In this document: one piece after another, positions 1 through 14,174 of the stretch | Layout: each line of letters opens with the position of its first letter | How positions within the stretch are numbered: the stretch's first letter is position 1 | NCBI GenBank assembly: GCA_947260005.1 | Contig: CAMYOL010000043.1 | Span: forward strand, 1 to 40,504 | Source: an uncultured Ectothiorhodospiraceae bacterium | GTDB lineage: Bacteria > Pseudomonadota > Gammaproteobacteria > UBA6429 > Thiohalophilaceae | Direction of reading: 5' to 3' | DNA length: 40,504 nucleotides | Translations under genes and position numbers: made by a program | Notes under the pieces: generated by a model | Told to the model about the DNA's origin: nothing | Databases searched by the model: none | Seen by the model: the letters and a program-made list of their open reading frames with translations, nothing else

Positions 1-99
1 GCCAAACCTGCAAACTCAAAGGCTTGGTCATCTTTGTAGCCAATAGATTGTTGCTGGACAGTGAATCCCGGGAGCTGAAATCTGCTTATCTCTTCTTTT
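1..99. repeat. Terminal direct repeat, left copy
   Basis: These 99 bases are identical to 40406-40504. An exact overlap of this size at both ends is what an assembler leaves when it closes a circular or circularly permuted map. The terminase large-subunit frame continues without a break across the joint, which confirms it. The repeat may therefore be an assembly overlap rather than a physical terminal repeat. Confidence 0.95.
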
Positions 100-467: not shown

Positions 468-470
468 ATA

Positions 471-1097
471 TCAAACCTCAATAAAAACATCTTTCCAAGT
501 TTTATTATTCTTTATATCTCGGATTGTTACCTTACTCACTTTATATAATTTAGCCAATAACTTTACAGGATTGTCGTGCGTTTTTAGAATGTATCTGATT
601 ACTTTTACAGCCTCAGTGTTTAATTTTGTCGCCGTTGAGTTCCTTGCGTTCACTGTTCTTGTGACCCACCTGCAATTCTCTGGGGTATAGTTTCCGTTGT
701 TATTTTCCCTATCAAGTTCATATTTATTTGTTGGTGGATCACCCATATCTTCATAGAAGCTCAGGAATCCTTTCAACCATCTATCACAAACTTTAATACC
801 TCGACCACCGTATCTACGGTAAGCCTTATTTGTTTTTCTATAACATCTGTCTATCATATTTCGATATACACTATAAGCCTTTGACTTTGTCATATCATGA
901 GTCTTACTCCTTGTTATAAGTTTTTCTATATTCAAACATCCGCATGATTTGGTCTTCCCACTCCTTACATTGTCAAATACTATTTCTTTTTCATTTCCAC
1001 ATTCACACAACCACATAGACCGCCTTTCCTTTCTACCGTTTGGCCGGACATATGGCTCAACATCATTCAATAACACTAATCTGTGATATTCAATCAT
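471..1097 (-). CDS. HNH-like (possibly homing) endonuclease with HTH tail
   Basis: About 208 residues. The N-terminal zinc ribbon has CECG and SCGCL motifs. The middle carries the degenerate HNH signature RRYGGRGIKVCDRW, then DMGDPP, LDRENNNGNYTPENCRW. A C-terminal helix-turn-helix-like segment follows (KVIRYILKTH to VSKVTIRDIKNNKTW). This layout is typical of free-standing phage HNH genes. It sits between terS and terL, which are normally adjacent, so it looks like an insertion. ATG 1097 overlaps the terS stop by 8 bases; an upstream TTG at 1103 is in frame but less likely. Homing activity is inferred only. Confidence 0.8.
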   Translation of the reverse strand: MIEYHRLVLLNDVEPYVRPNGRKERRSMWLCECGNEKEIVFDNVRSGKTKSCGCLNIEKLITRSKTHDMTKSKAYSVYRNMIDRCYRKTNKAYRRYGGRGIKVCDRWLKGFLSFYEDMGDPPTNKYELDRENNNGNYTPENCRWVTRTVNARNSTATKLNTEAVKVIRYILKTHDNPVKLLAKLYKVSKVTIRDIKNNKTWKDVFIEV

Positions 1098-1641
1098 CGT
1101 CAAGCATCGCCTTTAATTCTTCGTCTGATTTATCGGTTAAATCCTGTATACCAAGCACGCCAGATATCTGTTTTTTATCAGTAAACATAGCCATATGCTT
1201 ACCCAATAACTCTAATGATCCCTTTTTATCCAATAACTTAACCTTACTGGTTTTTCCAATATCATCACCAATAGTTGTATAATCCATACCGCCTATAGCC
1301 CTTCTTACATCTTCTGGCATTTCGTGGATCGGTAGAAGCTCCCCATTTTCGTTGTAAGCGTCTTTAATATCTATAAAGGCTATTAGAGCTAGTTCTTTTA
1401 ATACCCGATCCTGGGTTACCTCTGTTCGTTCCTGTCGTTTTAACTGCGCTTTTGTGATAGCTTCTTGAATATTAAGTTTTATTAAGTTCTGACAACCTAT
1501 TTCTTTTGCTGAGTTTTCACTGTAGCCAGCCCTAATAGCCGCTTGAGTTGCGTTTAAATCAATAAGATACTCTTGTACAAATAATGCTTGCTTGGGTGTT
1601 AGGCCGTCGTCATCTAATGTATTATCACTTCCTGCTGGCAT
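1090..1641 (-). CDS. terS: Terminase small subunit
   Basis: 183 residues, Terminase_2 type. The N-terminus GLTPKQALFVQEYLIDLNAT followed by QAAIRAGYSENSA is the classic DNA-binding HTH of this family. The remainder is the helical oligomerisation part. It recognises the packaging site and feeds DNA to TerL. The acidic C-terminus (KAMLDDD) overlaps the start of the HNH-like gene. ATG 1641 is the natural start, just downstream of the stop-side spacer of the 91-residue gene. Confidence 0.92.
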   Translation of the reverse strand: MPAGSDNTLDDDGLTPKQALFVQEYLIDLNATQAAIRAGYSENSAKEIGCQNLIKLNIQEAITKAQLKRQERTEVTQDRVLKELALIAFIDIKDAYNENGELLPIHEMPEDVRRAIGGMDYTTIGDDIGKTSKVKLLDKKGSLELLGKHMAMFTDKKQISGVLGIQDLTDKSDEELKAMLDDD

Positions 1642-1653
1642 TACTGTTTCTCT

Positions 1654-1929
1654 CTATGGGTGACAATTGTGTTTATCTATTAATGCTATTATATCGTCAA
1701 TATTTGTCCTGTTGTTGCATACGGCTATATAAGATAGCCCCGGCTCTACCTCTGTTAGTATTGATTTGTTTTCATTGCTATCGGCTATTTGCTGAACACC
1801 ATTAGAGTTATATAAATCCCATTCTTCAGTTGTTAAAGGGATTATCTGGCCTGGTTTCTTTGGTCCGGCTAGTTTTTCGCACAGACTTTTTGATACTGGG
1901 TTATCTTGATTAACTAAAAATATATTCAT
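1654..1929 (-). CDS. Hypothetical protein, 91 aa
   Basis: Not recognised. Begins MNIFLVNQDNPVSK, ends with a helical segment rich in Asn/Asp/Ile. No Cys motif or membrane segment. It lies in a virion-gene run (tail-associated genes, then terS), 11 nt after the DUF6496-like gene, so co-expression with late genes is likely. Confidence 0.75.
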   Translation of the reverse strand: MNIFLVNQDNPVSKSLCEKLAGPKKPGQIIPLTTEEWDLYNSNGVQQIADSNENKSILTEVEPGLSYIAVCNNRTNIDDIIALIDKHNCHP

Positions 1930-1940
1930 AACGATTCCTC

Positions 1941-2072
1941 TTAGGTTGTTCGCTTTTTCCTGGACTTTTTTAATGCTATTGCAATTGCCTGTTTTTGAGA
2001 CTTTCCTGCATTCATCTCTCTTTTAATATTAGCAGAGATTACTTTCTTTGATTTTCCTTTTTTTAAAGGCAT
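1941..2072 (-). CDS. Small basic protein, DUF6496-like, 43 aa
   Basis: MPLKKGKSKKVISANIKREM, then NAGKSQKQAIAIALKKSRKKRTT. This matches the widespread tiny phage protein family (DUF6496 as I recall it) with the PLKKG start and the KPQKQAVAIAL core. Very Lys-rich, probably nucleic-acid binding or structural; function is unknown. The start ATG overlaps the previous stop (TAATG at 2072). Confidence 0.8.
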   Translation of the reverse strand: MPLKKGKSKKVISANIKREMNAGKSQKQAIAIALKKSRKKRTT

Positions 2073-2374
2073 TATGAGGTTCCATCGTACAAAGAAACAT
2101 AATCGCCTGGATTTACCGCATAGTATCTAACTTCCCCTGCGGATTGTGGTAAGTATGTTGCGTCCGCTACGACAGTGTTATCCCCGAATGCTGGGTGCAC
2201 AACCGCATCGGCTCTTATTCCTACGTATCTGGTTTCTGCATTAAATGCCGAGCTTAACGTTGCAGTTGTATATGTGCTACTTTGGTTAGCTATTGCAGGC
2301 TCCTTTGGGACTTGCACAGGATAACCATTCGCGCTTCCTAAATCTTGATATTCACTAATCCAATAAGTTGCCAT
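2072..2374 (-). CDS. Putative small virion-associated protein, 100 aa
   Basis: MATYWISEYQDLGSANGYPV start, with Ala/Thr/Tyr-rich beta-type composition and no charge clusters. Proteins of this kind are common near tail or decoration genes of podoviruses. The Shine-Dalgarno AGGGG lies 7 nt before ATG, inside a preceding nine-codon ORF. Assignment to the virion is from context. Confidence 0.7.
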   Translation of the reverse strand: MATYWISEYQDLGSANGYPVQVPKEPAIANQSSTYTTATLSSAFNAETRYVGIRADAVVHPAFGDNTVVADATYLPQSAGEVRYYAVNPGDYVSLYDGTS

Positions 2375-2403
2375 TATTTACCCCTTATCCATAATGTTGC
2401 CAT
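2374..2403 (-). CDS. Nine-codon leader ORF (MATLWIRGK)
   Basis: The micro-ORF starts two bases after the stop of the 193-residue gene and its TAA overlaps the ATG of the next gene. Its start resembles the beginning of that next gene (MATYWIS), at DNA level too, so it may be a partial duplication retained as a coupling leader. It could equally be chance. Confidence 0.25.
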   Translation of the reverse strand: MATLWIRGK

Positions 2404-2404
2404 A

Positions 2405-2986
2405 TTAAGCCCCTAATTGTCCAAAATTACTCATTCCGCCGAAAAAACCGCCACCACCTGCGCTTGGCGTTAAGCCACCCGCGCTAAAATCGTCTATGCC
2501 AGCACCGGCAACGGCTCTTGGTAGCACACCTATGTTTGTCTCAGTGTTGTTAAATGTCTCTGCAACAGGACCAACTCTCGTAGTCCCGTTTAGGTTAAAA
2601 GTTATATTGTCCTCATTTGCCTCTAAATATAGTACATCACTGCCGCTCGATGCGGTTGTGTATGATCCCAGAAGAGAAAAAGTGCCGGTATCCCGCTTGT
2701 AGACTTGATACGCTCCACCGAAATACCTCACTCCGATAAAATTGCTTGAATCAGTAGACCTTAAGACGATATCAAAGTAAGCCCTTGCTAACGTCTCTAC
2801 TCGTGTGGCTTGCACAAACATATTAACATCGGCTTGATCTGGGCATGTATATAGAGATTCGCCAGCCGCAGTAAATGTTAGTATATTACTAACAATAGTC
2901 GCACAATTGGCCGCACCAACTTTAGTCCAGTTAGCCGATGCATCTAATAATTCATTTGCTCGATTGAAATTGTCTGAAAAGGCCAT
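2405..2986 (-). CDS. Putative jelly-roll/lectin-like virion protein
   Basis: 193 residues. Begins AFSDNFNRANELLDASANWT, a pattern shared by laminin-G or concanavalin-like modules in phage and bacterial surface proteins (DNF.R....L...W). Predicted all-beta, then a Gly-rich C-terminal tail (AGGGGFFGGMSNFGQLGA). Overlaps the beta-helix lipoprotein gene by one base (TAATG). Likely a tail or surface-binding protein. Family membership is by pattern only. Confidence 0.65.
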   Translation of the reverse strand: MAFSDNFNRANELLDASANWTKVGAANCATIVSNILTFTAAGESLYTCPDQADVNMFVQATRVETLARAYFDIVLRSTDSSNFIGVRYFGGAYQVYKRDTGTFSLLGSYTTASSGSDVLYLEANEDNITFNLNGTTRVGPVAETFNNTETNIGVLPRAVAGAGIDDFSAGGLTPSAGGGGFFGGMSNFGQLGA

Positions 2987-4218
2987 TAATTTAGCGTGTG
3001 GTTATTTGTTTGCACGGATTGACAATAAAACTGGTAACTTGGCGCTATACTCAAATCTACAGTTAAATCCCCTATATGGTCTACACAATTACCTGTCATA
3101 ATTTGCCTAAGTGGGTAGATTCCATTACTAATATTAGCATTAAATTCAAAATTATGCACTCTGGCAACCTTATTAGGGTCTAATCCGCTAGGGTCAGACC
3201 AATTCCCCATGGGCTGCGGTAGAATATGTAATGCTGTGGCAATTGTGCCTAATGAGTTATTTTCGATGTAATTTCTTTCAACGACTGTATCCCTTGCACC
3301 TAAAATGTTTATCGCTGCACCCGCGTCTATCGAACCTTCCGGATAGATTAGGTCGTTATGATGTATGTATGTGTCTTGTGGCGCTGGCCAATTTGTTGTG
3401 CCTTTTATCTCGAATCCAATATAAATTAACGCTATACCTCTATGAAATAAGTTGGTTTTTGGTGATTTTATTCGTTTATGTGTGTTTCCACTTATCTCAA
3501 CATTAGTTGAATTACTGGCATAAATACGTCCATCCACTGACTCGATGTAATTGTCTTTTACCGTTAAATTTGTGCATCGATGGCAAGCAATAGGGTCATC
3601 TCCCACACCTGTTATATGATTACCATAAAATACAGCATTATTAAACAATCCCAATCCAAAACCCTCGCTGCCCAACGCATTCGAATTGGCGCTTATGGTG
3701 TTATTCTCTATACGCAACCCGTCCCTGACATACTGGCCTGCACCGCTTAACCAGCCGTTGTGATTGCCTGATGTAGTCGCGCTGTACCGATATTCCCCCA
3801 AGTTAAATGTGCTTGTTGAGATAACTGCAAATTCTGTGCGCCAAAAATACAATAATCGACCTTCCTCCATAATGTTATCACCTGACACCGTGAATGCGGT
3901 ATTTGTAATTGCGCCATGCCATGGTATCTCTGCTTTGTTGTTCGCTGGGTTGCCGCCGCTGGGACCGCTTATGCCAAAATTGATAACATACGGTTCTTTC
4001 ACTTGATCTATATCAATTATTAATTCGCCACCTGTTAAGCTGGCTCCACCCCAGATGTAAACAGGCTTGGTTATTGTGATTTGACCAACTATTTCACATG
4101 TTAGGTTGTTGTCTGAGCAGTACGTTAGGGATTGTTGGATATTATTAGGGTCTATCTGAGTAGATGCATTGCAAGACGATGTGCACATTAACATTATCAA
4201 TGCAAAATACTTTTTCAT
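2986..4218 (-). CDS. Exported parallel beta-helix lipoprotein
   Basis: 410 residues. The N-terminus MKKYFALIMLMCTSSC is a lipoprotein signal peptide with a lipobox ending TSSC; CNASTQ would be the mature end. The body holds repeated right-handed beta-helix turns with Asn ladders: LRIENNTISANSN, VFYGNHITGVGDD, LTVKDNYIES, VEISGNTHKR, TYIHHNDLIYP, VVERNYIENN. Such folds bind or cut polysaccharides. A lipid-anchored export signal on a phage beta-helix protein is unusual. It may act on the host surface rather than in the virion. No catalytic residues could be assigned. Confidence 0.8.
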   Translation of the reverse strand: MKKYFALIMLMCTSSCNASTQIDPNNIQQSLTYCSDNNLTCEIVGQITITKPVYIWGGASLTGGELIIDIDQVKEPYVINFGISGPSGGNPANNKAEIPWHGAITNTAFTVSGDNIMEEGRLLYFWRTEFAVISTSTFNLGEYRYSATTSGNHNGWLSGAGQYVRDGLRIENNTISANSNALGSEGFGLGLFNNAVFYGNHITGVGDDPIACHRCTNLTVKDNYIESVDGRIYASNSTNVEISGNTHKRIKSPKTNLFHRGIALIYIGFEIKGTTNWPAPQDTYIHHNDLIYPEGSIDAGAAINILGARDTVVERNYIENNSLGTIATALHILPQPMGNWSDPSGLDPNKVARVHNFEFNANISNGIYPLRQIMTGNCVDHIGDLTVDLSIAPSYQFYCQSVQTNNHTLN

Positions 4219-4253
4219 ATAAAAACCTTATTCATTTCATAAGTTTAACATAG

Positions 4254-4463
4254 TTAAAAATCTAATCCTACCCGAATCTCATCGATCTTGTTAACCATAT
4301 TTTGTCCAATCACCCTTACCTCATCTATCGTAACCCAACCGATTGAAATCAAGAATATTATTACGATTGTTATCCACACATGTCGAAATTTCAGCGTGTC
4401 GATGATCTTTATTATAATTTCTTTCATTGATTTACCAAAATCTTCTTGACTATGACTAGTCAT
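4254..4463 (-). CDS. Small single-span membrane protein, 69 aa
   Basis: A charged N-terminus precedes one hydrophobic helix (VWITIVIIFLISIGWVTI) and an amphipathic C-terminus. The ATG at 4463 lies inside an 18-bp palindrome and the rightward promoter. An internal ATG at 4424 (MKEIIIKIID) is a possible alternative start. It could be a holin- or spanin-like accessory, but the main lysis cassette is elsewhere. Confidence 0.6.
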   Translation of the reverse strand: MTSHSQEDFGKSMKEIIIKIIDTLKFRHVWITIVIIFLISIGWVTIDEVRVIGQNMVNKIDEIRVGLDF

Positions 4464-4474
4464 AGTGCTATATT
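4446..4474 (+). promoter_or_regulatory. Rightward sigma70 promoter with 18-bp palindromic operator
   Basis: TTGACT (4446-4451), 17-nt spacer, TATATT (4469-4474). The spacer and -35 end form the perfect palindrome ACTATGACTAGTCATAGT (4449-4466), so a dimer bound there would block RNA polymerase. It also covers the start codon of the leftward gene at 4463. It faces the two-gene unit at 4513-4950. Confidence 0.75.
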
Positions 4475-4512
4475 TAAATCATACAAACAAACATTACACA
4501 GGAGTAATAATC

Positions 4513-4785
4513 ATGATCACAAACGGTAGCCAAAAACAGATAGATTATGCTAATAAAATAATTGCCACATGGACTATACAAGTTAATAACGTTGTAGATG
4601 ACGCCAAAGATCGCGTTAGTCGTAATACTATGCCTCAACAATGGCTTGATACTGTACAAGCCAGTGCAGATGCCTTTTTTACCAAATTAAATGCCACAAC
4701 TCAGGCATCACGTATAATAGATGCTCGTAATGTTAATTGCGGAGATGCAGTATTTAATGACGCATCAAAAAATTACACAAAATAG
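4513..4785 (+). CDS. Hypothetical protein of the rightward pair, 90 aa
   Basis: Starts MITNGSQKQIDYANKIIATW. The opening resembles small phage/plasmid proteins with a G-S-x-K-Q-x-x-W/Y-A motif. AGGAG precedes the ATG at 4513 by about 8 nt, which favours it over an upstream frame opening at 4465. Helical, with a Thr/Asn/Asp-rich C-terminus. First gene after the palindrome promoter; function unknown. Confidence 0.7.
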   Translation: MITNGSQKQIDYANKIIATWTIQVNNVVDDAKDRVSRNTMPQQWLDTVQASADAFFTKLNATTQASRIIDARNVNCGDAVFNDASKNYTK

Positions 4786-4794
4786 TATAAAATT

Positions 4795-4950
4795 ATGTCA
4801 TATAAAACAGTATATAAAAATAACTCTCAAAAATACAGGGATGGCCTACGCGCTAAGGGATTAGTGCCTGTTTTGTGCTGGGTATTGCCCGACAATAAAG
4901 CTAAACTTAAAAAAACCGAAGCGCAACTTCGCACTAAACTACCTCGATAA
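4795..4950 (+). CDS. MazE-like / DUF3018-like small protein, 51 aa
   Basis: MSYKTVYKNNSQKYRDGLRA then KGLVPVLCWVLPDNKAKLKK. The core Y-R-x-x-L-R-A-K-G-L-x-P-V-x-x-W-V-x-P matches antitoxin MazE-like (DUF3018) proteins, which are DNA-binding and usually autoregulatory. No toxin partner is evident; the 90-aa gene 9 nt upstream is not toxin-like to my eye. It could be the repressor of the palindromic operator at 4449-4466. The 3' end overlaps the convergent gene at 4934. Confidence 0.65.
   Translation: MSYKTVYKNNSQKYRDGLRAKGLVPVLCWVLPDNKAKLKKTEAQLRTKLPR
4909..4931 (-). terminator. Leftward intrinsic terminator candidate
   Basis: On the minus strand CGAAG-TTGCG-CTTCG forms a 5-bp hairpin followed by G and seven T. 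It lies just after the stop of the DUF1064-like gene (4934) and inside the end of the rightward 51-aa gene. It would separate the leftward early operon from the virion module. Confidence 0.5.
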
Positions 4951-5242
4951 CAACCGGGTATAAATCTTCGACCATTTTCTTTTTCATAATAAAATCTTTG
5001 GTTTGCATCCCCTTGACGTCAATGAAATGAATGGTCCCATCAGTATGAAATTCCTGGAAATCTACTCTATATTTAACCGTCCCTGGTAGATCGAATGGAA
5101 CCTGCCGTAGATAAAAGATCACCTCCCCTGATTTAATTCTCAAGTCTAGCTCAGTACAATAATCCGCTTCTTTTTTTGAATCAAATTTAATTCCATTAAC
5201 CTCTGTTTTTTTGGCGTTGTATTTATGCCTATGTATTCTCAT
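4934..5242 (-). CDS. DUF1064-like PD-(D/E)XK nuclease
   Basis: 102 residues. Opens HKYNAKKTEVNGIKFDSKKE, the hallmark of DUF1064 phage proteins. PD-(D/E)XK elements are visible: E in SKKEADY (about residue 26), D in YRVDFQEF, and FIDVKGMQTKDF carrying the D-x-K. These proteins are thought to act as phage recombination or resolvase-type nucleases. Overlaps the upstream Ref-like gene by 14 nt, together forming a recombination module with NinB. Confidence 0.82.
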   Translation of the reverse strand: MRIHRHKYNAKKTEVNGIKFDSKKEADYCTELDLRIKSGEVIFYLRQVPFDLPGTVKYRVDFQEFHTDGTIHFIDVKGMQTKDFIMKKKMVEDLYPVVIEVV

Positions 5243-5540
5243 ATTCTTTAATAAGTAAGTTCTGATATTCTAATAGTTCTCTTAATGGTAAATATCGCAT
5301 CTCAAATCTTGCTTTATACGGATGCACGCTTGTATATCTCAGCGTGTCCTTCTTACTATCGTGATGTTCGTAGCATAAACCAATCGTTAGCTTGTGTTTT
5401 TCTTGGTTCTTTTGTCCGTCCAAGTGGTGCCAAGTGCAGGGTACGCTCTCTTTACCTTCAATCTTGCATACAATACACCCGATATCCCGTATTATCTCAA
5501 ATCGGCGTTGGTTTTCTTTATTGGGTTTAACTCCATTCAT
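5229..5540 (-). CDS. Ref-like HNH recombination nuclease
   Basis: 103 residues. Pattern GCIVCKIEG...CTWHHLDG...HKLTIGLCYEHH, then HPYKARFEMRY. This is the layout of P1 Ref-type RecA-dependent HNH nucleases: zinc Cys pair, HH, second HH and a C-terminal FE.RY. In P1, Ref stimulates recombination and cuts RecA-coated DNA. Here it sits with DUF1064- and NinB-like genes. ATG 5540 immediately follows the stop of a 32-aa membrane peptide. Confidence 0.78.
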   Translation of the reverse strand: MNGVKPNKENQRRFEIIRDIGCIVCKIEGKESVPCTWHHLDGQKNQEKHKLTIGLCYEHHDSKKDTLRYTSVHPYKARFEMRYLPLRELLEYQNLLIKEYENT

Positions 5541-5543
5541 ACA

Positions 5544-5642
5544 TCACCCGCCAGCACACTTGCTTATCCAAACAACAACAAGACCCACTATGACGATCAT
5601 GCTGACTACGTTTGCTGCTGTTTTTAGTTCTTTGTCTATCAT
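5544..5642 (-). CDS. Tiny membrane protein, 32 aa
   Basis: MIDKELKTAANVVSMIVIVG then LVVVWISKCAGG: a short cytoplasmic N-terminus and one strong transmembrane helix. It fits snugly between flanking genes, and TGATG leads to the Ref-like start. Function unknown. Confidence 0.5.
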   Translation of the reverse strand: MIDKELKTAANVVSMIVIVGLVVVWISKCAGG

Positions 5643-5649
5643 TTGGCAC

Positions 5650-5964
5650 CTATTTGAGTTCCATAACTATTCCTGCGGTAATACTATAATTTCCCGGCGG
5701 TATACAAACAATTTTTCTGTCAAATAACAGTAATTCGTTTTGTATCACATTCCCATCGTACAACACTTTATTACCATTAATTAATGCTTGCATTGCAAAT
5801 GAGTCATCCGTTACACCATCGCCATGCAAAATCGGATAAGGATTATGTATTTTATTCTGGGTTAATAGCTCCTTTAATACACTACCTACCGCCGTACTGG
5901 GTAATGTCGCAGCAACGCCTATACCTAGCCCTAGTGATTTTAAAAAATTTCTTCTTGATATCAT
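5650..5964 (-). CDS. Tat-exported pectate-lyase-like protein, short
   Basis: 104 residues. The N-terminus MISRRNFLKSLGLGIGVAAT is a textbook twin-arginine signal (S-R-R-N-F-L-K) with a hydrophobic stretch and likely cleavage near TAVG. Next comes ILHGDGVTDDSFAMQALINGNK, the N-terminal cap motif of pectate-lyase-superfamily beta-helices (GDGVTDD..A.Q..IN). The protein stops after about 55 further residues, too short for a full helix. It is either a truncated remnant or a mini-protein. A Tat substrate encoded by a phage is rare. Confidence 0.75.
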   Translation of the reverse strand: MISRRNFLKSLGLGIGVAATLPSTAVGSVLKELLTQNKIHNPYPILHGDGVTDDSFAMQALINGNKVLYDGNVIQNELLLFDRKIVCIPPGNYSITAGIVMELK

Positions 5965-6107
5965 TTGGCACCTAATACATTCTTTTTCTTGAGCTTTTCC
6001 AAATGCTTATCCATTTCTGAAAACCACTCCATGGGGATGCGGCGCTTGTATTGACCGATCCCCAGTGATTTTTGTTTGTCTTCGTATTTTTTGTGCTTGT
6101 TTTGCAC
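5961..6107 (-). CDS. Hypothetical basic protein, 48 aa, GTG start
   Basis: The frame runs from GTG 6107 (VQNKHKKYEDKQKSLGIGQY) to a TGA overlapping the Tat-protein ATG. Lys-rich N-terminus, then KRRIPMEWFSEMDKHLEKLK. AGGGATAGAG upstream could be the ribosome site. Resembles small phage proteins of the K.Y..KQK.LG..RR type, function unknown. Confidence 0.55.
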   Translation of the reverse strand: MQNKHKKYEDKQKSLGIGQYKRRIPMEWFSEMDKHLEKLKKKNVLGAK

Positions 6108-6109
6108 CT

Positions 6110-6313
6110 CTATCCCTCGTCACTGCTAAACCCAAGTTCTGCGGTAAGCTTCCAATCATTTTCAGCTATTACTAATTTCTCACTATCTGCCATACCAACA
6201 TCTATATCTAGTGCATAGTAATTAGCAAAGAATAGATATGTCTCGTGGTAATCATCGTACACATATACTTTTTCGCATTGGTCATCAAATCTGAATCTAT
6301 CCATTTCGTTCAC
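6110..6313 (-). CDS. Hypothetical acidic protein, 67 aa
   Basis: MNEMDRFRFDDQCEKVYVYD, with alternating aromatic and acidic residues (YVYDDYHETYLFFANYYALD). First gene downstream of the palindrome-bearing promoter at 6346-6374. Function not recognised. Confidence 0.65.
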   Translation of the reverse strand: MNEMDRFRFDDQCEKVYVYDDYHETYLFFANYYALDIDVGMADSEKLVIAENDWKLTAELGFSSDEG

Positions 6314-6329
6314 CTTTTGTTTGTGTTTT

Positions 6330-6342
6330 CTTAACTGTTAAG
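6330..6342. promoter_or_regulatory. Start-site palindrome CTTAACTGTTAAG
   Basis: A perfect 13-bp inverted repeat (arms CTTAAC/GTTAAG around T) positioned where transcription from the TATACT box at 6346-6351 should begin. With the palindrome in the promoter spacer it makes a two-operator arrangement. Binding is inferred. Confidence 0.6.
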
Positions 6343-6345
6343 GTA

Positions 6346-6374
6346 AGTATAGGTTAGTAGGTTCCTACTGTCAA
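6346..6374 (-). promoter_or_regulatory. Leftward sigma70 promoter with operator in the spacer
   Basis: On the minus strand TTGACA (6374-6369), 17-nt spacer, TATACT (6351-6346): almost exact consensus. The spacer holds the perfect inverted repeat AGTAGG-TT-CCTACT (6356-6369 on the plus strand). A second palindrome sits at the start site. It drives 6313 leftward, a set including the Tat protein and the recombination genes. Confidence 0.82.
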
Positions 6375-6381
6375 GGATTAT

Positions 6382-6822
6382 TTACAATTTATCGCCGTAT
6401 ATTGCGTATCTCATCAAATCAGGGTCTTTTAACACCAACCCCTGGTAATCGTCGTCTGATTCTATTGATAACTTTACTTTTTCTAAAAATTTCGCAAATT
6501 CCTTAATACCAATTTCGCTTGTTCCAACCAATTTTTCTACTGGTTTGCCGGCTGTTTCAATGACTTTGTAGCCCAAAAATAACCCTTGGTAATAATATTT
6601 AAAAAACTCTGGCGGTTTCTGCAATCCATAATGCTCTAAATACCAATCAACCAATTGTTGAAACCAAAGCCACATGATTCGATTTTGTGCCACCCTTCTA
6701 ACACTTATGCATTTCTTTATTTCTATAATGTATTCTTTATCATCATCCAGGGTTTTGATATACCGATGGACATAATCTGCCCTGGTATCCTTTGTGCCTT
6801 TTTGGATGATTATTTGTTTCAA
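6382..6822 (-). CDS. ninB: NinB-like recombination protein
   Basis: 146 residues. IEIKKCISVRRVAQNRIMWL followed by WFQQLVDWYLEHYG is the NinB core (R..QN..MW). Further on are PPEFFKYYYQGLFLGYKVIE and GIKEFAKFLEKV. Lambda NinB (Orf) is a DNA-binding recombination mediator that helps load annealing/RecA functions, consistent with the annealing protein in the rightward operon. It overlaps the next upstream gene by 4 nt and lies just before the operator-bearing promoter. Confidence 0.82.
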   Translation of the reverse strand: MKQIIIQKGTKDTRADYVHRYIKTLDDDKEYIIEIKKCISVRRVAQNRIMWLWFQQLVDWYLEHYGLQKPPEFFKYYYQGLFLGYKVIETAGKPVEKLVGTSEIGIKEFAKFLEKVKLSIESDDDYQGLVLKDPDLMRYAIYGDKL

Positions 6823-7013
6823 TGTTCTGTGACTTCAAATTCTTTCAAGACTATGTCTAAATACGCTTTAGTCTCCGGGCATGTCGTGATTTCCCATGCG
6901 ACTATTAGAGATTGTAGTAGGTCATGGTTTTCGATACATGCTTGAGTATATGCTTCGTCTGTTACCCTGATCTTCTCGTTTGCGCGACGTAAAGCTGTGT
7001 TTACTATAGTCAT
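6819..7013 (-). CDS. Hypothetical helical protein, 64 aa
   Basis: ATG at 7013 (MTIVNTALRRANEKIRVTDE) preceded by GAGG 7 nt away; the longer frame begins at a TTG and is less likely. Helical and amphipathic, with two Cys. ATGA overlaps with both neighbours indicate coupled translation ahead of ninB. Confidence 0.65.
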   Translation of the reverse strand: MTIVNTALRRANEKIRVTDEAYTQACIENHDLLQSLIVAWEITTCPETKAYLDIVLKEFEVTEH

Positions 7014-7264
7014 ATACAATCCTCATTGTACGTTAACTCAATATACGCGCCGATTAAATCGGCATCCTGGCACATGAGTATCATGTCGTACTCGTCCATT
7101 TCTTCTATATCACAGCCTGGGTCACCGTCCCATCGATCACATGGTTGCCAGCCTTGATCCTTGATGTTTTTGCCATCAATCCCACAATAATCTAGTGGAT
7201 CATCGCCGTGCTTGCAATTTTTACACGATCTCATAAAACCAGCCGTCATCGTAATAACTATCAA
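7010..7264 (-). CDS. Cys-rich small protein with CxxC ribbon
   Basis: The core is RSCKNCKHGDDPLDYCGIDG then QPCDRWDGDPGCD: C..C...C...C spacing typical of a zinc knuckle. An acidic C-terminus follows (EEMDEYDMILMCQDADLIG). An internal start at 7234 (MRSCKNC) would shorten the overlap with the upstream gene from 44 to 14 nt and is more plausible. Function unknown. Confidence 0.65.
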   Translation of the reverse strand: MIVITMTAGFMRSCKNCKHGDDPLDYCGIDGKNIKDQGWQPCDRWDGDPGCDIEEMDEYDMILMCQDADLIGAYIELTYNEDCI

Positions 7265-7439
7265 TCAATCCCTTACTTATTAGTCTGTCAATTTCCGTTT
7301 TATTTTTCCGATAATCTGGATCAAAAGCCAAATCAAGAATTTTAATAACATTTGTCAGACTTATCTCTCCGCAAATTTTAATCGTGTAATAGATCATCGA
7401 TTGTCTTTGGCCTAATGGTAAGTAGTTATATTTTAACAT
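7221..7439 (-). CDS. Small winged-helix-like protein, 72 aa
   Basis: QRQSMIYYTIKICGEISLTN followed by TEIDRLISKGLIDSYYDDGW resembles a single winged-helix unit (helix, recognition helix, wing). No catalytic motif. Located directly downstream of a protein with two such modules; both may bind DNA. Confidence 0.55.
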   Translation of the reverse strand: MLKYNYLPLGQRQSMIYYTIKICGEISLTNVIKILDLAFDPDYRKNKTEIDRLISKGLIDSYYDDGWFYEIV

Positions 7440-7869
7440 AATACCCGTTCTTTAATCGCTTGATTACCTTTTCTATACCTCCACTACCGTTTAATTTACT
7501 GATCATATTCCTGATTTTTTCTGGCTTTTCATCGCTGAGGATTCTTACCACCTCAATTGATTTTTTTGGCTCTCGCAATAAACTTAATACTCTATATCTC
7601 AAACCAAGTTTATCAATAGGTAGTAATTGATACCGGTTATCTAAGTATTCTATTTTTTTGATATAACCCCGCCCCCCCTGTAAATTTTGTAACATAGTGT
7701 TAATTACACCTTTTGAATTATCGATGTTTTTATGAATTTCTTTTAGAGTTTTAGGTCCATCCTCTAATAATTCTAAAATTTTTATCCGACACGTTTTTGG
7801 TTTTATTTTAGGCTTTGGCAATGGATGATGTTTCCAGATTATTTTAGTTAACTCAACATACATGCACAT
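7426..7869 (-). CDS. Tandem winged-helix DNA-binding protein
   Basis: 147 residues with two similar halves: RIKILELLEDGPKTLKEIHK...INTMLQNLQGGRGYIKKIE and YRVLSLLREPKKSIEVVRIL...IRNMISKLNGSGGIEKVIK. Each has the wHTH pattern of a helix, a second helix and a Gly-containing wing. Basic overall. AGGTGA precedes the ATG at 7869. Likely a regulator or accessory DNA-binding factor. Confidence 0.6.
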   Translation of the reverse strand: MCMYVELTKIIWKHHPLPKPKIKPKTCRIKILELLEDGPKTLKEIHKNIDNSKGVINTMLQNLQGGRGYIKKIEYLDNRYQLLPIDKLGLRYRVLSLLREPKKSIEVVRILSDEKPEKIRNMISKLNGSGGIEKVIKRLKNGYYVKI

Positions 7870-7876
7870 ATATCAC

Positions 7877-8233
7877 CTAATCATTTTTAATATAAGTATA
7901 TTCATACATAGTGCTATTGGTGTACTCACATTTTCTTGGTTTTTTGACAACATTTGGTAAATTGACATATTTTTCCATTTCTTTTTTTGATACTAACGGG
8001 CAACCACTGTTCCATGACTTTCTTGTAACCAATTGCAGGCAAGCTCCATTGTCAAGAACTATATCGCCATTCCTTAATTCATAAGTTTTTCTACCAGATT
8101 TTATAGTATCCATAACGCACCTATTTGTTTTATTCATCGCAGCCCGTAAGCAGCTATATGCTTGCCTAAATGCTTTCTTCTTCTTTATCTGTTGGCCTGA
8201 ATGTTGGATCATCTGATTTACCTTCTTAGCCAT
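7877..8233 (-). CDS. Hypothetical protein with a duplicated AFRQAYS segment
   Basis: The longest frame starts at 8497 and would add about 44 Met-Ala pairs encoded by the hexanucleotide array. The better start is the last array ATG at 8233 (MAKKVNQMIQHSG), which overlaps the stop of the Gly-rich frame as ATGGCTAA, a reinitiation arrangement. Residues about 20-36 (KKAFRQAYSCLRAAMNKT) copy the C-terminus of the gene at 8818-9006. A second part, ELRNGDIVLDNGACLQLVTR, resembles small phage proteins I cannot name. No known function. Confidence 0.55.
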   Translation of the reverse strand: MAKKVNQMIQHSGQQIKKKKAFRQAYSCLRAAMNKTNRCVMDTIKSGRKTYELRNGDIVLDNGACLQLVTRKSWNSGCPLVSKKEMEKYVNLPNVVKKPRKCEYTNSTMYEYTYIKND

Positions 8234-8507
8234 AGCCATTGCCATTGCCATCGCCATAGCCATTGCCATCGCCATTGCCATCGCCATAGCCATTGCCATC
8301 GCCATAGCCATTGCCATCGCCATAGCCATAGCCATAGCCATTGCCATCGCCATAGCCATAGCCATAGCCATAGCCATTGCCATCGCCATAGCCATCGCCA
8401 TAGCCATAGCCATTGCCATAGCCATAGCCATAGCCATAGCCATAGCCATAGCCATTGCCATCGCCATCGCCATAGCCATCGCCATCGCCATAGCCATTGG
8501 TTACCAT
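8226..8507 (-). CDS. Alternating Gly-Tyr/Asp/Asn repeat protein, 93 aa
   Basis: MVT followed by 45 (X-Gly) pairs, X being Tyr (22), Asp (12) or Asn (11). The ATG at 8507 overlaps the stop of the DUF6948-like gene (ATGGTAA) and has GAGG 7 nt upstream, a proper ribosome site that the Met-Ala frame lacks. Absence of the fourth base at the variable position means His is excluded in this frame, while in the Met-Ala frame the change would be silent. Both points favour this frame. Related DUF6948-type phage proteins, as I recall, carry such a Gly-rich tail in frame. Confidence 0.6.
   Translation of the reverse strand: MVTNGYGDGDGYGDGDGNGYGYGYGYGYGYGNGYGYGDGYGDGNGYGYGYGYGDGNGYGYGYGDGNGYGDGNGYGDGNGDGNGYGDGNGNGYG
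8229..8500. repeat. Degenerate hexanucleotide array, about 45 units
   Basis: Tandem GCCATH units on the plus strand (minus: GGCDAT). Five positions are fixed and one varies among three bases, never the fourth. On the minus strand the variable base is T in 22 units, G in 12 and A in 11, never C. The right (promoter-distal) part repeats Tyr-Asp-Asn codon triplets, an 18-bp higher-order unit. Six is a multiple of three, so copy-number change alters length but not frame. Confidence 0.95.
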
Positions 8508-8821
8508 TTTGACACCTCAATATCAATCATGTGCTTTAATTCAGAGATAGGAGCCTTGATATTTGGCGTATTATCTAACCTTGTCTTCTCAAGTGGACCC
8601 TCCAACGCTAATTGACCAAGCCCCTTGCATGTACCCCATCGCCTGATATTTTGTGCGTTTGAAATATACAACCACTCACTATCTGTCGATAGATTTCCAA
8701 CATAGACGAACCCTTTGTCTAAAACGACAATTTTCTTACCGTGTTCCTGGGCTAGTCCTGTATTTCTGTCACCTGTATCATTTAACACAGATAGTAATTT
8801 TATCAAATCATCTATATTCAT
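8501..8821 (-). CDS. DUF6948-like phage protein, 106 aa
   Basis: GKKIVVLDKGFVYVGNLS...LYISNAQNIRRWGTCKGLGQ LALEG...KCxx-like core, ISELKHMIDIEVSKW end. It matches my memory of the DUF6948 pattern: V-x-x-D/Y-x-G-V-x-x-G, N-A-R-R-x-W, L-x-x-L-A-x-E-G. Function unknown. It ends at TAA 8501-8503 immediately before the Gly-rich repeat frame, reachable by restart at the overlapping ATG or by a -1 shift at TCA AAA TGG. Confidence 0.65.
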   Translation of the reverse strand: MNIDDLIKLLSVLNDTGDRNTGLAQEHGKKIVVLDKGFVYVGNLSTDSEWLYISNAQNIRRWGTCKGLGQLALEGPLEKTRLDNTPNIKAPISELKHMIDIEVSKW

Positions 8822-9006
8822 TTTTTCACCCTCATTGTTTTATTCATCGCCGCCCGTAGGTCGCTGTATGCTTGCCTAAATGCTTTCTTCGGCTGTTTGG
8901 TGTGTCTTAGTAATTCGTAAGTTGTTTTCAGCATCCTTGGGGTTTTGGGCTCGTCTAGCCAGAAATGTTCTCGACAGTACTGGTCTTGCATTCCTATTAA
9001 GTTCAT
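8818..9006 (-). CDS. Hypothetical protein, 62 aa, source of duplicated segment
   Basis: ATG 9006 (MNLIGMQDQYCREHFWLDEP) overlaps the previous stop as ATGA and has AAGGA upstream; the longer frame from 9045 is unlikely. It ends KKAFRQAYSDLRAAMNKTMRVKK, a segment shared with the gene at 7877-8233 at protein and DNA level. Function unknown. Confidence 0.65.
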   Translation of the reverse strand: MNLIGMQDQYCREHFWLDEPKTPRMLKTTYELLRHTKQPKKAFRQAYSDLRAAMNKTMRVKK

Positions 9007-9257
9007 ATCATTTCCTTGCAACATTCTTCGTAGTGTGTCGCGCAATGCTCGTGGATTAAAGCTATTTCTTCTATTGTTGAGCTATATGCTGGGTCTTCTG
9101 GATTAACAATTAATTCTATTATTATTTCTATTGGGTCTTTTGGGGATATTTGATTCTCTCGATATCCCTCTTTAGCTTGATATACGATATTTAGCGCAGG
9201 GTATTCGTATTCCTCTGTTACCTCGTTGTAGCGTTCTGTCTGGTATTTAGTCAGCAT
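9003..9257 (-). CDS. Hypothetical acidic protein, 84 aa
   Basis: MLTKYQTERYNEVTEEYEYP, then a helical segment EIIIELIVNPEDP and a His/Cys C-terminus (HEHCATHYEECCKEM) that might bind metal. ATG 9257 follows the 28-aa membrane peptide with no gap. Not recognised. Confidence 0.65.
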   Translation of the reverse strand: MLTKYQTERYNEVTEEYEYPALNIVYQAKEGYRENQISPKDPIEIIIELIVNPEDPAYSSTIEEIALIHEHCATHYEECCKEMI

Positions 9258-9258
9258 A

Positions 9259-9345
9259 TTAAATCCTAAAATCCGTAATGATTACCATTAGGTAAATACT
9301 GTAGAATAGTGCTAACTCTATTAGAGCAAATGTTACGGTTTTCAT
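9259..9345 (-). CDS. Tiny membrane peptide, 28 aa
   Basis: MKTVTFALIELALFYSIYLM then VIITDFRI: almost entirely one transmembrane helix. Its ATG overlaps the stop of the ribbon-helix-helix-like gene (ATGA). Coupled position on both sides supports a real gene. Confidence 0.5.
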   Translation of the reverse strand: MKTVTFALIELALFYSIYLMVIITDFRI

Positions 9346-9512
9346 GGCTTCACCTTTTTATTCACGTATTCAGATATTAAGTTTTCCATCAACCGATTAG
9401 CTGAATATCCTTCTTTTTCGGCCAACCTCTTGAACTTATTGAAGTCGGCCTGGGCCTTGTTGTTCATAGTCCGGTATGTGTATTTGATTATTGTGTGTTT
9501 TTTAGTTGGCAT
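9342..9512 (-). CDS. Arc/CopG-like ribbon-helix-helix protein, 56 aa
   Basis: MPTKKHTIIKYTYRTMNNKA, then DFNKFKRLAEKEGYSANRLM and ENLISEYVNKKVKP. A beta strand followed by two helices with A-E-K-E-G-x-S-x-N-x-L-x-x-x-L-I is the Arc-family pattern, so it is probably a DNA-binding repressor. It is second in the unit driven by the promoter at 9767-9795. Confidence 0.65.
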   Translation of the reverse strand: MPTKKHTIIKYTYRTMNNKAQADFNKFKRLAEKEGYSANRLMENLISEYVNKKVKP

Positions 9513-9517
9513 AAATC

Positions 9518-9733
9518 TTAACTCACCAATTTATAACCTAATTGTGATATCGCGTCAGTTATACCCTTGTAAGCCTCATCATAAGTAGAGCCAGCATAAT
9601 AAGGATCAAACGAAACATCTTGCCTATGATCTTCTTTTCTATCAGAAAATGTTACAAAAAACCTATAAGAAGTAGCATAAGTAACATGTGAAATAGTTGC
9701 AGTTTTTGGTCTGGTTTGTAATATGTCGTTCAT
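9518..9733 (-). CDS. Hypothetical protein, 71 aa
   Basis: MNDILQTRPKTATISHVTYA; beta-rich, with VSFDPYYAGSTYDEAYKGIT and a C-terminal helix. First gene downstream of the left copy of the duplicated promoter; CCGGAG precedes the ATG. Not recognised. Confidence 0.65.
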   Translation of the reverse strand: MNDILQTRPKTATISHVTYATSYRFFVTFSDRKEDHRQDVSFDPYYAGSTYDEAYKGITDAISQLGYKLVS

Positions 9734-9755
9734 GATTTTCTCCGGTTTTCCTCAT

Positions 9756-9807
9756 CTCTTGTAATAATTATAGCTGCCGTCTTGGTTGCCGTCAAGGTTT
9801 ATTTGTG
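9756..9807. repeat. 52-bp direct repeat (promoter cassette), left copy
   Basis: Identical base for base to 10138-10189 and carrying a complete promoter. The flanking bases differ at both ends, so the duplicated unit is the cassette itself. Confidence 0.9.
9767..9795 (-). promoter_or_regulatory. Leftward sigma70 promoter, cassette copy 1
   Basis: Minus strand TTGACG (9795-9790), 17-nt spacer, TATAAT (9772-9767). Two direct GACGGCA elements 12 nt apart overlap the -35 box and spacer, a candidate regulator site. Serves the 71-aa gene ending at 9733 and downstream genes. Confidence 0.85.
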
Positions 9808-9824
9808 CTTGTTTTGCATGTTTT

Positions 9825-10106
9825 TTACCTTACTTGACTGGCTTCAAAGCCATTTTTTACAAACCATGCTACTTTTTTATTATGTTCTGCTACTTTTTTA
9901 TTGTGTTCGCTAATTTCTTTTAATGTTTCTTCACTAAGGATATCTTCCATTTTATAACTTAAGCATTCGCCATTACCTGCTAATTTTGTTGCTTTTTTGA
10001 TTCGATAAAACATTTGATCGGTTAAACCCTGGGCAAACTTTTCACTTACGTCAATTACTTCAACTTCGCCGTTAGTTCTTTTTATTGTAATGGTAGTTTT
10101 TCTCAT
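9825..10106 (-). CDS. Hypothetical protein with internal heptad repeat, 93 aa
   Basis: MRKTTITIKRTNGEVEVIDV, a beta start, then helices ending in a perfect duplication EHNKKVAEHNKKVA (two seven-residue units) and WFVKNGFEASQVR. First gene after promoter cassette copy 2. The heptad copy may have arisen by slippage. Not recognised. Confidence 0.7.
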   Translation of the reverse strand: MRKTTITIKRTNGEVEVIDVSEKFAQGLTDQMFYRIKKATKLAGNGECLSYKMEDILSEETLKEISEHNKKVAEHNKKVAWFVKNGFEASQVR

Positions 10107-10137
10107 CGTGTTCGCCTTTTTAGTTTGTTTTCCTTAG

Positions 10138-10189
10138 CTCTTGTAATAATTATAGCTGCCGTCTTGGTTGCCGTCAAGGTTTATTTGTG
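10138..10189. repeat. 52-bp direct repeat (promoter cassette), right copy
   Basis: Second copy of 9756-9807; the two are 382 bp apart and separated by the 93-aa gene. An identical cassette before two consecutive genes suggests recent duplication or strong constraint. Confidence 0.9.
10149..10177 (-). promoter_or_regulatory. Leftward sigma70 promoter, cassette copy 2
   Basis: Same TTGACG-17-TATAAT as copy 1 with the paired GACGGCA elements, read toward the 93-aa gene that starts at 10106. Confidence 0.85.
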
Positions 10190-10215
10190 TTTATTTTTGA
10201 TTTCTTTATCCATAG

Positions 10216-10404
10216 TTATTCCTTAATTTCTTCTATATCATCTAACCCTAACTCCATGTATCCTAATATATTAATGTCATCGTCAATATATTGACCCCCA
10301 CCGTTGTTGAATAATTTTATTGCTTGCTCTTTATTGTCAGCATAAATTTCAAATGTTGTATAACCGTCCGCTCTATCTACCTTTGCATGTATATGATATT
10401 TCAT
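10216..10404 (-). CDS. Hypothetical protein, 62 aa
   Basis: ATG 10404 (MKYHIHAKVDRADGYTTFEI) with GAGGA 6 nt upstream is preferred to a frame opening at 10449. Compact alpha/beta pattern (YADNKEQAIKLFNNGG) with an acidic tail LDDIEEIKE; resembles small phage proteins that modify perception of host signals only in size. Function unknown. Confidence 0.65.
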   Translation of the reverse strand: MKYHIHAKVDRADGYTTFEIYADNKEQAIKLFNNGGGQYIDDDINILGYMELGLDDIEEIKE

Positions 10405-10438
10405 TGTCTTTCCTCTAATCTGGTTTATTTTGGAGTGT

Positions 10439-10606
10439 TCAGCATACATCTGGATCTAGGTTCATCTCCTTGCACCTTTCCCTTGATCTGCCAGCACCAG
10501 CCGAAAACAATGTTGAGTACAATTTCCAATTTTCAGGCTGTTTAATCCTACCGTCTATAAATCGCCTTACATTTCTCATGACTAGTAATTTCTCGCCGTT
10601 GTTCAT
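10439..10606 (-). CDS. Hypothetical protein, 55 aa
   Basis: ATG 10606 (MNNGEKLLVMRNVRRFIDGR) with AGAGGTG upstream. Basic, helical, ends RERCKEMNLDPDVC. The ribosome site overlaps the end of the 70-aa gene upstream. Not recognised. Confidence 0.6.
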   Translation of the reverse strand: MNNGEKLLVMRNVRRFIDGRIKQPENWKLYSTLFSAGAGRSRERCKEMNLDPDVC

Positions 10607-10613
10607 ATTGTAT

Positions 10614-10826
10614 TCACCTCTTTGTATGTTTATATTCACTTAGTGTCAGTACTGGCTTTACTTCCCTACCGGCTGGCATGTCTATGTATTCTCTGCATGG
10701 ATCGGTTTTTAAGTAGCATGTAATTTCAAACTTGCCTTTGGGATTAACTTTAGGCCGTATAAACTGAACATATCGATTACCTTGCCAGTAAAAATCATGC
10801 TTGTATGGTACGTTTTTTAGTTTCAT
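10614..10826 (-). CDS. Hypothetical basic protein, 70 aa
   Basis: MKLKNVPYKHDFYWQGNRYV, a beta-rich small basic protein with one Cys pair (CYLKTDPC). The ATG follows the leader AAACATACAAAGG, a sequence that recurs before neighbouring genes. Its end (KHTKR) is encoded by the next copy of that leader. Confidence 0.65.
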   Translation of the reverse strand: MKLKNVPYKHDFYWQGNRYVQFIRPKVNPKGKFEITCYLKTDPCREYIDMPAGREVKPVLTLSEYKHTKR

Positions 10827-10852
10827 GGCCTTTGTATGTTTATATTTATACC

Positions 10853-11320
10853 TTAAACTCTTTTGCCGCCGTGCTTATAACCTCGATTCCTGTTTTTTTC
10901 TAATTTATTTTTTATTCTGTTATCAATATCAATGCCTAACCCGCCAGTCAGGTCTAAAATCCTTATTATTTGGTCGGCGCATTCGTCAGCGAAATTTTCT
11001 TTATCATTCGCTCTGAAACCCTCTAGAGCTTCGCTTGTTTCGGACGTTATCAGCGCTAGGATTGCCGGTATTTTATAATCATCTTCCCATTCTTCTGGCG
11101 CAACTACCTCCCACCCATTAGCTCTATTTATTTGATTTATTTCTAACGCTAACGAGTTTAAATATAATGATTCTTTTGTTTCCCAGTTTTTAGCTACCTC
11201 ATATGCGTTTTGCCATTCGAATTTTACTTCCGAGTAATCATCATCAACTACCGGCGTCATTATTAATCTACGAGTTTGCTCTTTAAGTTCAATTAATGCT
11301 TCATGTTCGTTTTTGATCAT
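10853..11320 (-). CDS. MazG-like nucleotide pyrophosphohydrolase
   Basis: 155 residues. The C-terminal two thirds carry the all-alpha NTP-PPase pattern: INQINRANGW, then LITSETSEALEGFRAN (E..E..E), then ENFADECADQIIRILDL (E..D) and a basic tail IKNKLEKNRNRGYKHGGKR. Such enzymes hydrolyse (d)NTPs to monophosphates and in phages may lower alarmones or remove damaged nucleotides. The N-terminal 50 residues are an extra helical part. Preceded by AAACATACAAAGGTG. Confidence 0.8.
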   Translation of the reverse strand: MIKNEHEALIELKEQTRRLIMTPVVDDDYSEVKFEWQNAYEVAKNWETKESLYLNSLALEINQINRANGWEVVAPEEWEDDYKIPAILALITSETSEALEGFRANDKENFADECADQIIRILDLTGGLGIDIDNRIKNKLEKNRNRGYKHGGKRV

Positions 11321-11421
11321 TTTATTTCACCTTTGTATGTTTTGGTTATATTGATTCCACTGTTTTGGATATAGCTTCGCCAAGGGTGAAGGTAACAAAC
11401 CTTCCTTAAACCCATACCCAT
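11317..11421 (-). CDS. Possible 34-aa leader ORF before the MazG-like gene
   Basis: The frame MGMGLRKVCYLHPWRSYIQN ... KTYKGEIK ends in TGA overlapping the MazG-like ATG (ATGA) and contains the recurring AAACATACAAAGGTG leader. A TATAAT-like box lies just upstream. Coupling geometry is good, but there is no other evidence of coding. Confidence 0.25.
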   Translation of the reverse strand: MGMGLRKVCYLHPWRSYIQNSGINITKTYKGEIK

Positions 11422-11579
11422 ATATAATTAATATTATATACTGATATCCACAAAATGCCTTTAACTTATCCTCTCCCTGGCCAGTATCACCCAATAAACC
11501 AGTTCAATTTTTGTACTCAGTAAAGGTCTGGTACAGTCAACCTAACCCGTGGTAACGGCGCTAGACTGTTTTTCACCCT
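11422..11579. other. Gene-free segment with nested inverted repeat
   Basis: No convincing frame. On the minus strand a TATAAT-like AT-rich stretch at about 11425-11445 could serve the MazG-like gene. On the plus strand ACAGTC ... GACTGT (about 11533-11571) encloses CCGT-GGTA-ACGG and is followed by five T, a structure like a rightward transcript end. No matching gene. Confidence 0.4.
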
Positions 11580-11966
11580 CTAGAGATTTCTCGATAATTC
11601 CTTAACTAACCTATAAACCTTTCTAGCTTCGTCAATGGACCGAATATTTGCTGTATGATACTCCCAACCTAGCTTTTTAGTTAAAATCGCGTATATCTTA
11701 CCTCGTGGCATTTTGTGAGATTGCCAAATAGGGTCCAATATCTTATGTATATGCATACGTGCGTTTTTAACGTCTTTTGTTACCATGACACCCAACGGCA
11801 AAGTAGGGTTGCTTTTGTCTTTATGATGGCAACCTACATATAACCCGCAGGCGTCACACTTCCAAAATGGCAAATTAGCTAAGTCTTTTCTATGCGGATA
11901 TATTTCAGTACCGTTTGTTAGCCTGGCATCTACTTTGTAGCCACATTTACAGCAATGTATTTTCAC
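11580..11966 (-). CDS. DUF3268-like zinc-finger protein
   Basis: 128 residues. HCCKCGYKVDARLTNGTEIYPHRKDL, then FWKCDACGLYVGCHHKD, PLGVMVTKDVKNARMHIHKI, DPIWQSHKMPRGKIYAILTK. The paired CxxC, Y-x-GCH, PLG, R...H...DP-W and R-x-x-x-Y-x-x-L are the DUF3268 (zinc-finger-containing) signature. Commonly found in phage early regions; role unknown. Overlaps the next gene by 4 nt. Confidence 0.8.
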   Translation of the reverse strand: MKIHCCKCGYKVDARLTNGTEIYPHRKDLANLPFWKCDACGLYVGCHHKDKSNPTLPLGVMVTKDVKNARMHIHKILDPIWQSHKMPRGKIYAILTKKLGWEYHTANIRSIDEARKVYRLVKELSRNL

Positions 11967-12166
11967 TTATCTTTCTTCTCTTGTGGTGTACCAAGTGGAT
12001 ATAAATCGATTTGTTCACCATCAATAATTGGCCTAATCAGTAAAATATTAAGCAGTTCAGACACTTCTGATTTAGTCATGCGAATACAAGCGCACTCAGG
12101 CTCATGGCACATACCATCTTCTAGCCCGTAACACGCATCACAGATTTTGATATTGAACTCTCTCAT
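11963..12166 (-). CDS. Small Cys-rich protein, 67 aa
   Basis: IKICDACYGLEDGMCHEPEC followed by ACIRMTKSEVSELLN: four to five Cys arranged like a zinc knuckle, then a helix and an IDGEQIDLYPLGTPQEKK tail. ATGA overlap with the DUF3268-like gene. Not recognised. Confidence 0.65.
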   Translation of the reverse strand: MREFNIKICDACYGLEDGMCHEPECACIRMTKSEVSELLNILLIRPIIDGEQIDLYPLGTPQEKKDK

Positions 12167-12190
12167 AATTCCACCTAATTTAATAAGGAT

Positions 12191-12379
12191 TTAACTAAAT
12201 GAATCTTTCTTGACATCTGCCGATTCGGGGCCGGTTAATCTTGGTTGGCGCTTTTGGCAATTCGGATAACATGAGTAATAATTCGGAATTACCCCATGAG
12301 GACATTCTTTTCTAGTGCCGCCCCATAGATCACTTAATTTTAATGAATAAAATTTACATTTTCCGCAAATAGCGTCCAT
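12191..12379 (-). CDS. Small Cys-rich protein, 62 aa
   Basis: ATG 12379 (MDAICGKCKFYSLKLSDLWG) begins a compact zinc-ribbon-like protein: ICGKC, then ECPHG and SCYPNC. The longer frame to 12469 lacks a ribosome site. First leftward gene after a 500-bp gene-free stretch. Confidence 0.65.
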   Translation of the reverse strand: MDAICGKCKFYSLKLSDLWGGTRKECPHGVIPNYYSCYPNCQKRQPRLTGPESADVKKDSFS

Positions 12380-12542
12380 AATTAACCATCTCTCGTTAGT
12401 CTGACGATTGCAATGGGTGAGTAGTGGCCAGACTTGCCACTGGCAGTTAATATTTAACCATTCAGCCAACTAATTTGGTCAGGTCATAAATTAAGCACTA
12501 CTCAAAACTTTAACCATAAGTAAAAACTTAGGATTACCGGCT

Positions 12543-12570
12543 TTGACAAAGATTTGTGAGTTGTTATAAT
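12543..12570 (+). promoter_or_regulatory. Rightward sigma70 promoter of a gene-free transcript
   Basis: TTGACA (12543-12548), 16-nt spacer, TATAAT (12565-12570), both hexamers perfect. It points into a region with no plausible gene and an intrinsic terminator about 150 nt on, which suggests a small RNA. Confidence 0.75.
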
Positions 12571-12576
12571 GTGGGT

Positions 12577-12747: not shown

Positions 12748-12748
12748 G

Positions 12749-12757: not shown

Positions 12758-12763
12758 TAAATT

Positions 12764-13865: not shown

Positions 13866-13867
13866 TA

Positions 13868-14159: not shown

Positions 14160-14174
14160 ATTTATTCCTCACTA

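Follow-up and report, generated by a model that had tools for sequence, protein, structure and literature searches.

What controls the promoter that lies between a NinB-like gene and a run of small genes in an uncultured phage, and do its two palindromes serve as operators for one repressor, for two, or for none? The window (the whole 40,504-nt stretch of DNA that was analysed, contig C43 of its genome) carries an identical 99-bp direct repeat at both ends (1–99 and 40406–40504) and, because of this repeat, reads as a circular phage of ~40.4 kb, though an assembly overlap would give the same picture. The portal protein matched 275 phage records, all at <60% identity (LUZ24-type, 27%; Pelagibacter phage, 29.6%), with relatives on five metagenome viral contigs (L008–L012; 62–68% identity) that have mainly structural genes in common with the window. 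A megablast of positions 1–25000 against phages and plasmids returned nothing. For a LUZ24-type phage, the available part of the published account predicts promoters and leaves a repressor unmentioned (PMC3890496). The window also holds an array of repeats in 12- and 18-nt steps (8179–8557, within a 206-aa ORF at 7877–8497 and the next ORF) and a 188-bp direct repeat with 93% identity (12896–13083 and 13669–13856). The promoter looks real and is probably a regulated accessory promoter of an ordinary phage, nothing was found at it beyond normal phage gene control, and it offers a concrete, testable point at which the phage may control its recombination and accessory genes.

The promoter matches the sigma-70 consensus at 11 of 12 positions, with its boxes 17 bp apart (16–18 bp in sigma-70 promoters). 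All of the elements listed in a first-pass annotation of this DNA, TTGACA-17-TATACT and two perfect palindromes of differing sequence, were present, with the promoter on the minus strand (Table 1). The spacer palindrome AGTAGGAACCTACT starts on the final base of the −35 box, while CTTAACAGTTAAG spans the predicted start, and a 35-nt leader that includes the AAGGTGA motif runs to an ATG at 6304. The entire arrangement sits in the short gap between the NinB-like gene, which ends at 6382, and the 64-aa gene. A 5′ RNA hairpin was considered and rejected, as folding from 6339 gave −0.4 kcal/mol.

Table 1. Coordinates of the promoter elements, the neighbouring genes, and the proposed binder within the window
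Feature	Position	Strand	Basis or remark
-35 box TTGACA	6369–6374	-	Sequence
-10 box TATACT	6346–6351	-	17-nt spacing from -35
Spacer palindrome AGTAGGAACCTACT (AGTAGG-AA-CCTACT)	6356–6369		Perfect; proposed operator
Start-point palindrome CTTAACAGTTAAG (CTTAAC-A-GTTAAG)	6330–6342		Possible second operator or chance dyad
Predicted transcription start	6339 (~±2)	-	Inferred from distance to -10 box
Shine-Dalgarno-like AAGGTGA	6310–6316	-	Read from sequence
NinB-like gene, upstream of promoter	6382–6822	-	phrog_72, E 3.5e-13
64-aa gene, first in unit	6110–6304	-	No family match
48-aa gene, GTG start	5961–6107	-	No family match
104-aa protein	5650–5964	-	Tat-signal-like start and part of a pectate-lyase-like domain; neither match reaches its Pfam cut-off
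32-aa ORF, membrane-helix-like	5544–5642	-	By eye
Ref-like RecA-dependent nuclease family gene	5229–5540	-	Family match
DUF1064/Holliday-junction-resolvase-like gene	4934–5242	-	Family match
Terminator-like hairpin and T run, unit end	4917–4935	-	No folding advantage over shuffles, z 0.20
Arc-like repressor candidate, proposed binder	9342–9512	-	Arc-like repressor family, E 3.5e-4

The gene order only partly bears out the unit as originally described, with a Tat protein and three recombination genes under this promoter. Two recombination genes (Ref-like and DUF1064) are downstream and the NinB-like gene is upstream; a 104-aa product with a Tat-signal-like start is indeed downstream, but its match falls below the Pfam cut-off. 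Relatives of the 104-aa and 64-aa proteins were absent from the phage collection, those of the Ref-like and 64-aa proteins from short-peptide scans of viral contigs, and those of the Ref-like protein from 57 other genomes. In a possible parallel to phage moron units, small accessory genes are flanked by a strong promoter string and by a terminator-like hairpin that is present yet weak; the unit differs from morons in also having recombination genes, and its expression from a prophage is putative.

Under the proposed mechanism, a host-type sigma-70 promoter, situated where this tailed phage carries its recombination genes, would start a short accessory transcript at ~6339 on the minus strand. 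The transcript would cover the 64-aa gene, the 48-aa gene, the Tat-signal-like gene, the 32-aa ORF, and the Ref-like and DUF1064 genes, six in all, and stop at the hairpin (4935–4917). A small DNA-binding protein of the phage, acting as a dimer, would occupy the spacer palindrome, and the bound dyad would block RNA polymerase, such that the unit is quieted as the repressor accumulates; the simplest choice for it is a ribbon-helix-helix protein, for example the Arc-like product encoded at 9342–9512. The palindrome over the start point could be an additional operator or could have arisen by chance. An accessory sigma-70 promoter with a spacer palindrome bound by a small dimeric phage repressor is the preferred reading, to which we assign an even chance, and the prospect of one operator is put at even or better.

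Perfect palindromes (arm ≥6, loop ≤3) were compared to a background of 20 Markov simulations. The window contained 35 distinct perfect palindromes (simulated mean, 40.9), and promoter-like strings as a class were likewise not enriched in positions 1–20000 (70, compared to a mean of 71.8 in shuffles). The absence of palindrome enrichment, along with the fact that neither dyad recurs or is conserved, is consistent with a strong constitutive early promoter in which both dyads arose by chance. However, the uncommon part is the coincidence of two dyads within one promoter, which is unlikely by chance. Among simulated 47-nt blocks (n = 21,544), 3.5% had at least one palindrome and 0.056% had at least two, and for the five promoter-like sites scoring 11–12 of 12 across the whole window, ~0.003 double hits would be expected by our own post hoc arithmetic. 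The constitutive promoter is considered unlikely.

Repression by a single protein at the spacer dyad is further favoured by a near-consensus promoter followed by a leader and a start codon, and by the presence in the same phage of an Arc-like gene (E 3.5e-4, with weak fold support). In both respects the locus resembles the Arc/Mnt-type phage promoters repressed by ribbon-helix-helix proteins, where a dyad likewise lies in a sigma-70 promoter; the spacer dyad does not resemble the Arc operator, and binding here is putative. A single-sequence model of 9342–9512 (mean pLDDT 77.6) has two helices and lacks the N-terminal strand, and while its 46 weak Foldseek hits include the ribbon-helix-helix domains of CopASO, PutA52, Arc, and FitA, none reached E ≤ 0.001 and its best and sole Pfam match was unrelated and sub-threshold, all of which weakens its claim as the binder. 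Among the other DNA-binding candidates named at the outset, 4795–4950 held up alongside the Arc-like protein, with a MazE-like match just above the Pfam cut-off, but family support was weak for the supposed ribbon-helix-helix protein 18846–19001 (DUF6364 match below the Pfam cut-off) and absent for the supposed helix-turn-helix protein 18179–18379 (no firm family match; predicted model too uncertain, mean pLDDT 58.7). TrmB/ArsR-like matches to 7426–7869 were sub-threshold. The 48-aa product of the unit aligned with 4795–4950 and with a 46-aa ORF of L009 at 20–23% identity, a level that does not prove kinship. No phage gene could be linked to either dyad, which counts against a named binder at the spacer site.

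Control by two different repressors, one at the spacer dyad and another at the start-point dyad, was the original interpretation. The operator-like character of the dyads is well supported by the anatomy, but control by two proteins is inferred, since each dyad occurs as a single exact copy in the phage and neither relative with a NinB-family gene (L011 and L009) has a promoter directly after it. Both dyads are perfect and unlike in sequence, the phage encodes several candidate DNA-binding proteins, and a promoter in an unrelated phage (L045) combines a spacer dyad with AGTTAACAGTTAACT at the start. Conversely, neither dyad has a known binder, and the short, A+T-rich start dyad has near matches in the window (≤3 mismatches) at chance level (17 compared to 14.17 expected). 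A second, different repressor may act here, but this is unproven and on balance doubtful.

The absence from the window of a second exact copy of either dyad also weighs against the single-repressor reading, and the proposed search for the palindromes in related phages had a mixed outcome in which neither dyad was conserved but the layout was found with other letters. In L012, a promoter-like site whose spacer contains the dyad CTGTGACACAG adjoins a divergent ribbon-helix-helix-like gene (NikA-like, E 1.1e-4, below the Pfam cut-off; repressor phrog_876, E 1.8e-4), and in L009 a similar site, with the dyad CTTGCGCGCAAG in its spacer, precedes the 46-aa ORF and the NinB-family gene. The layout therefore recurs in the group, with letters differing each time, in keeping with a single repressor. 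Against this reading, neither L011 nor L009 has a promoter scoring ≥10 of 12 directly after its NinB-family gene, which in L011 is a 26% tblastn hit to the window's NinB-like protein (next gene begins at once by sequence reading) and in L009 was identified by profile (E 5.1e-8; next ORF overlaps). Exact patterns joining the spacer dyad to a −35 box or promoter matched no viral contig. The full promoter pattern occurred in one of 58 related genomes, its own, and was absent from the 57 others, and the species-genome collection had a single match to the spacer dyad with its promoter, which falls within a 340-aa frame on the opposite strand and was judged to be chance. Among the papers listed for the palindrome letters, none was by its title about a phage operator. 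A host regulon for the spacer dyad was rejected, with AGTAGGNNCCTACT at ≤2 mismatches having 29 forward matches in its own genome compared to 119 in the reversed control and its only exact copy there being that of the window.

A likeness beyond the group is to divergent repressor switches of temperate phages such as those of L045 and L052, which likewise combine a spacer dyad with TTAAC-N-GTTAA at the start. In L045, the spacer-dyad promoter, with a near-copy of the dyad upstream (by eye), lies between divergent helix-turn-helix regulator genes, an arrangement that supports the single-repressor layout, and L052 has TATACTTACATTAACAGTTAAG as its start region between divergent regulator genes. 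In contrast, the window promoter belongs to a one-way operon. Its upstream NinB-like gene is on the same strand, divergent regulators are absent, and each dyad has a single copy in the window, unlike the repeated operators of CI/Cro-type switches. Comparison with L045 and L052 hints, if faintly, that TTAACAGTTAA is a recurrent motif at the start points of phage promoters.

Alternatively, a host response regulator of the LytTR type might recognise the start-point element. LytTR sites are two direct repeats of a 9-mer upstream of the −35 box, whereas sequence inspection found one copy here, over +1. The host does carry two LytTR genes. In the available part of a staphylococcal study, the gel-shift probe of AgrA contains the same 12 letters TTAACAGTTAAG in a different arrangement (PMC5179057). 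However, CTTAACNGTTAAG was not enriched in the host genome (≤1 mismatch; 11 forward compared to 12 in the reversed control), a result on which a host regulon for the start dyad was also rejected, and a LytTR site is given hardly any credence.

Across viral sequences, TATAMT-2..5-CTTAACNGTTAAG was found in nine stretches, two of which (L018 and L021) were judged real promoters, and TTGAC-17..19-TATNNT-2..6-TTAACNGTTAA in 47, with redundant families included, of which 27 were tagged intergenic. A scan with gaps of 0–30 gave at least 120 stretches, and the 80 matches listed formed 52 clusters. Among these listed matches, the 28 intergenic clusters had gaps of 3–8 in 11 cases, 9–30 in 16, and <3 in one (P = 0.018 for a positional excess), and the 24 coding control clusters, where no excess is expected, had the same lean (8, 15, and 1, respectively; P = 0.10). 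The promoter with its start element had no match in 369 genomes of the class other than the window. In 299 genomes of the phylum, TATAAT-0..30-TTAACNGTTAA had 20 matches compared to 16 in the reversed control (our count), with gaps of 3–8 in six of the 20 (3.9 expected if uniform; no clear excess). TTAACNGTTAA is thus found at the start points of other phage promoters, with an excess that is weak relative to the coding control. Because the coding control leans alike and the bacterial genomes lack a clear excess, a general start-point rule has no statistical footing and is not established. It is very unlikely that strong promoters from many unrelated phages share TTAACNGTTAA over +1 as an element recognised by a common factor, the window promoter being one case that adds a private spacer operator.

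Of seven hand-chosen promoter candidates in the phage, three (4446+, 6374−, and 16306+) carry a perfect dyad that overlaps or abuts the −35 box. Two of these dyads, those of 4446+ and 16306+, are weaker as operators, since each also coincides with a possible gene start on the opposite strand. The former site (4446–4474, plus strand) has the promoter-like string TTGACT-17-TATATT with an 18-bp perfect palindrome, ACTATGACTAGTCATAGT, across the −35 box and spacer, and precedes a 106-aa ORF and the MazE-like gene, while at the latter (16306–16335, plus strand) TGACATATTATGTCA overlaps a full-consensus TTGACA-18-TATAAT string where a minus-strand ORF begins. A 91-bp repeat on the minus strand (9745–9835 and 10127–10217; 87% identical) carries TTGACG-17-TATAAT in both copies, with GACGGCA repeated in the spacer.
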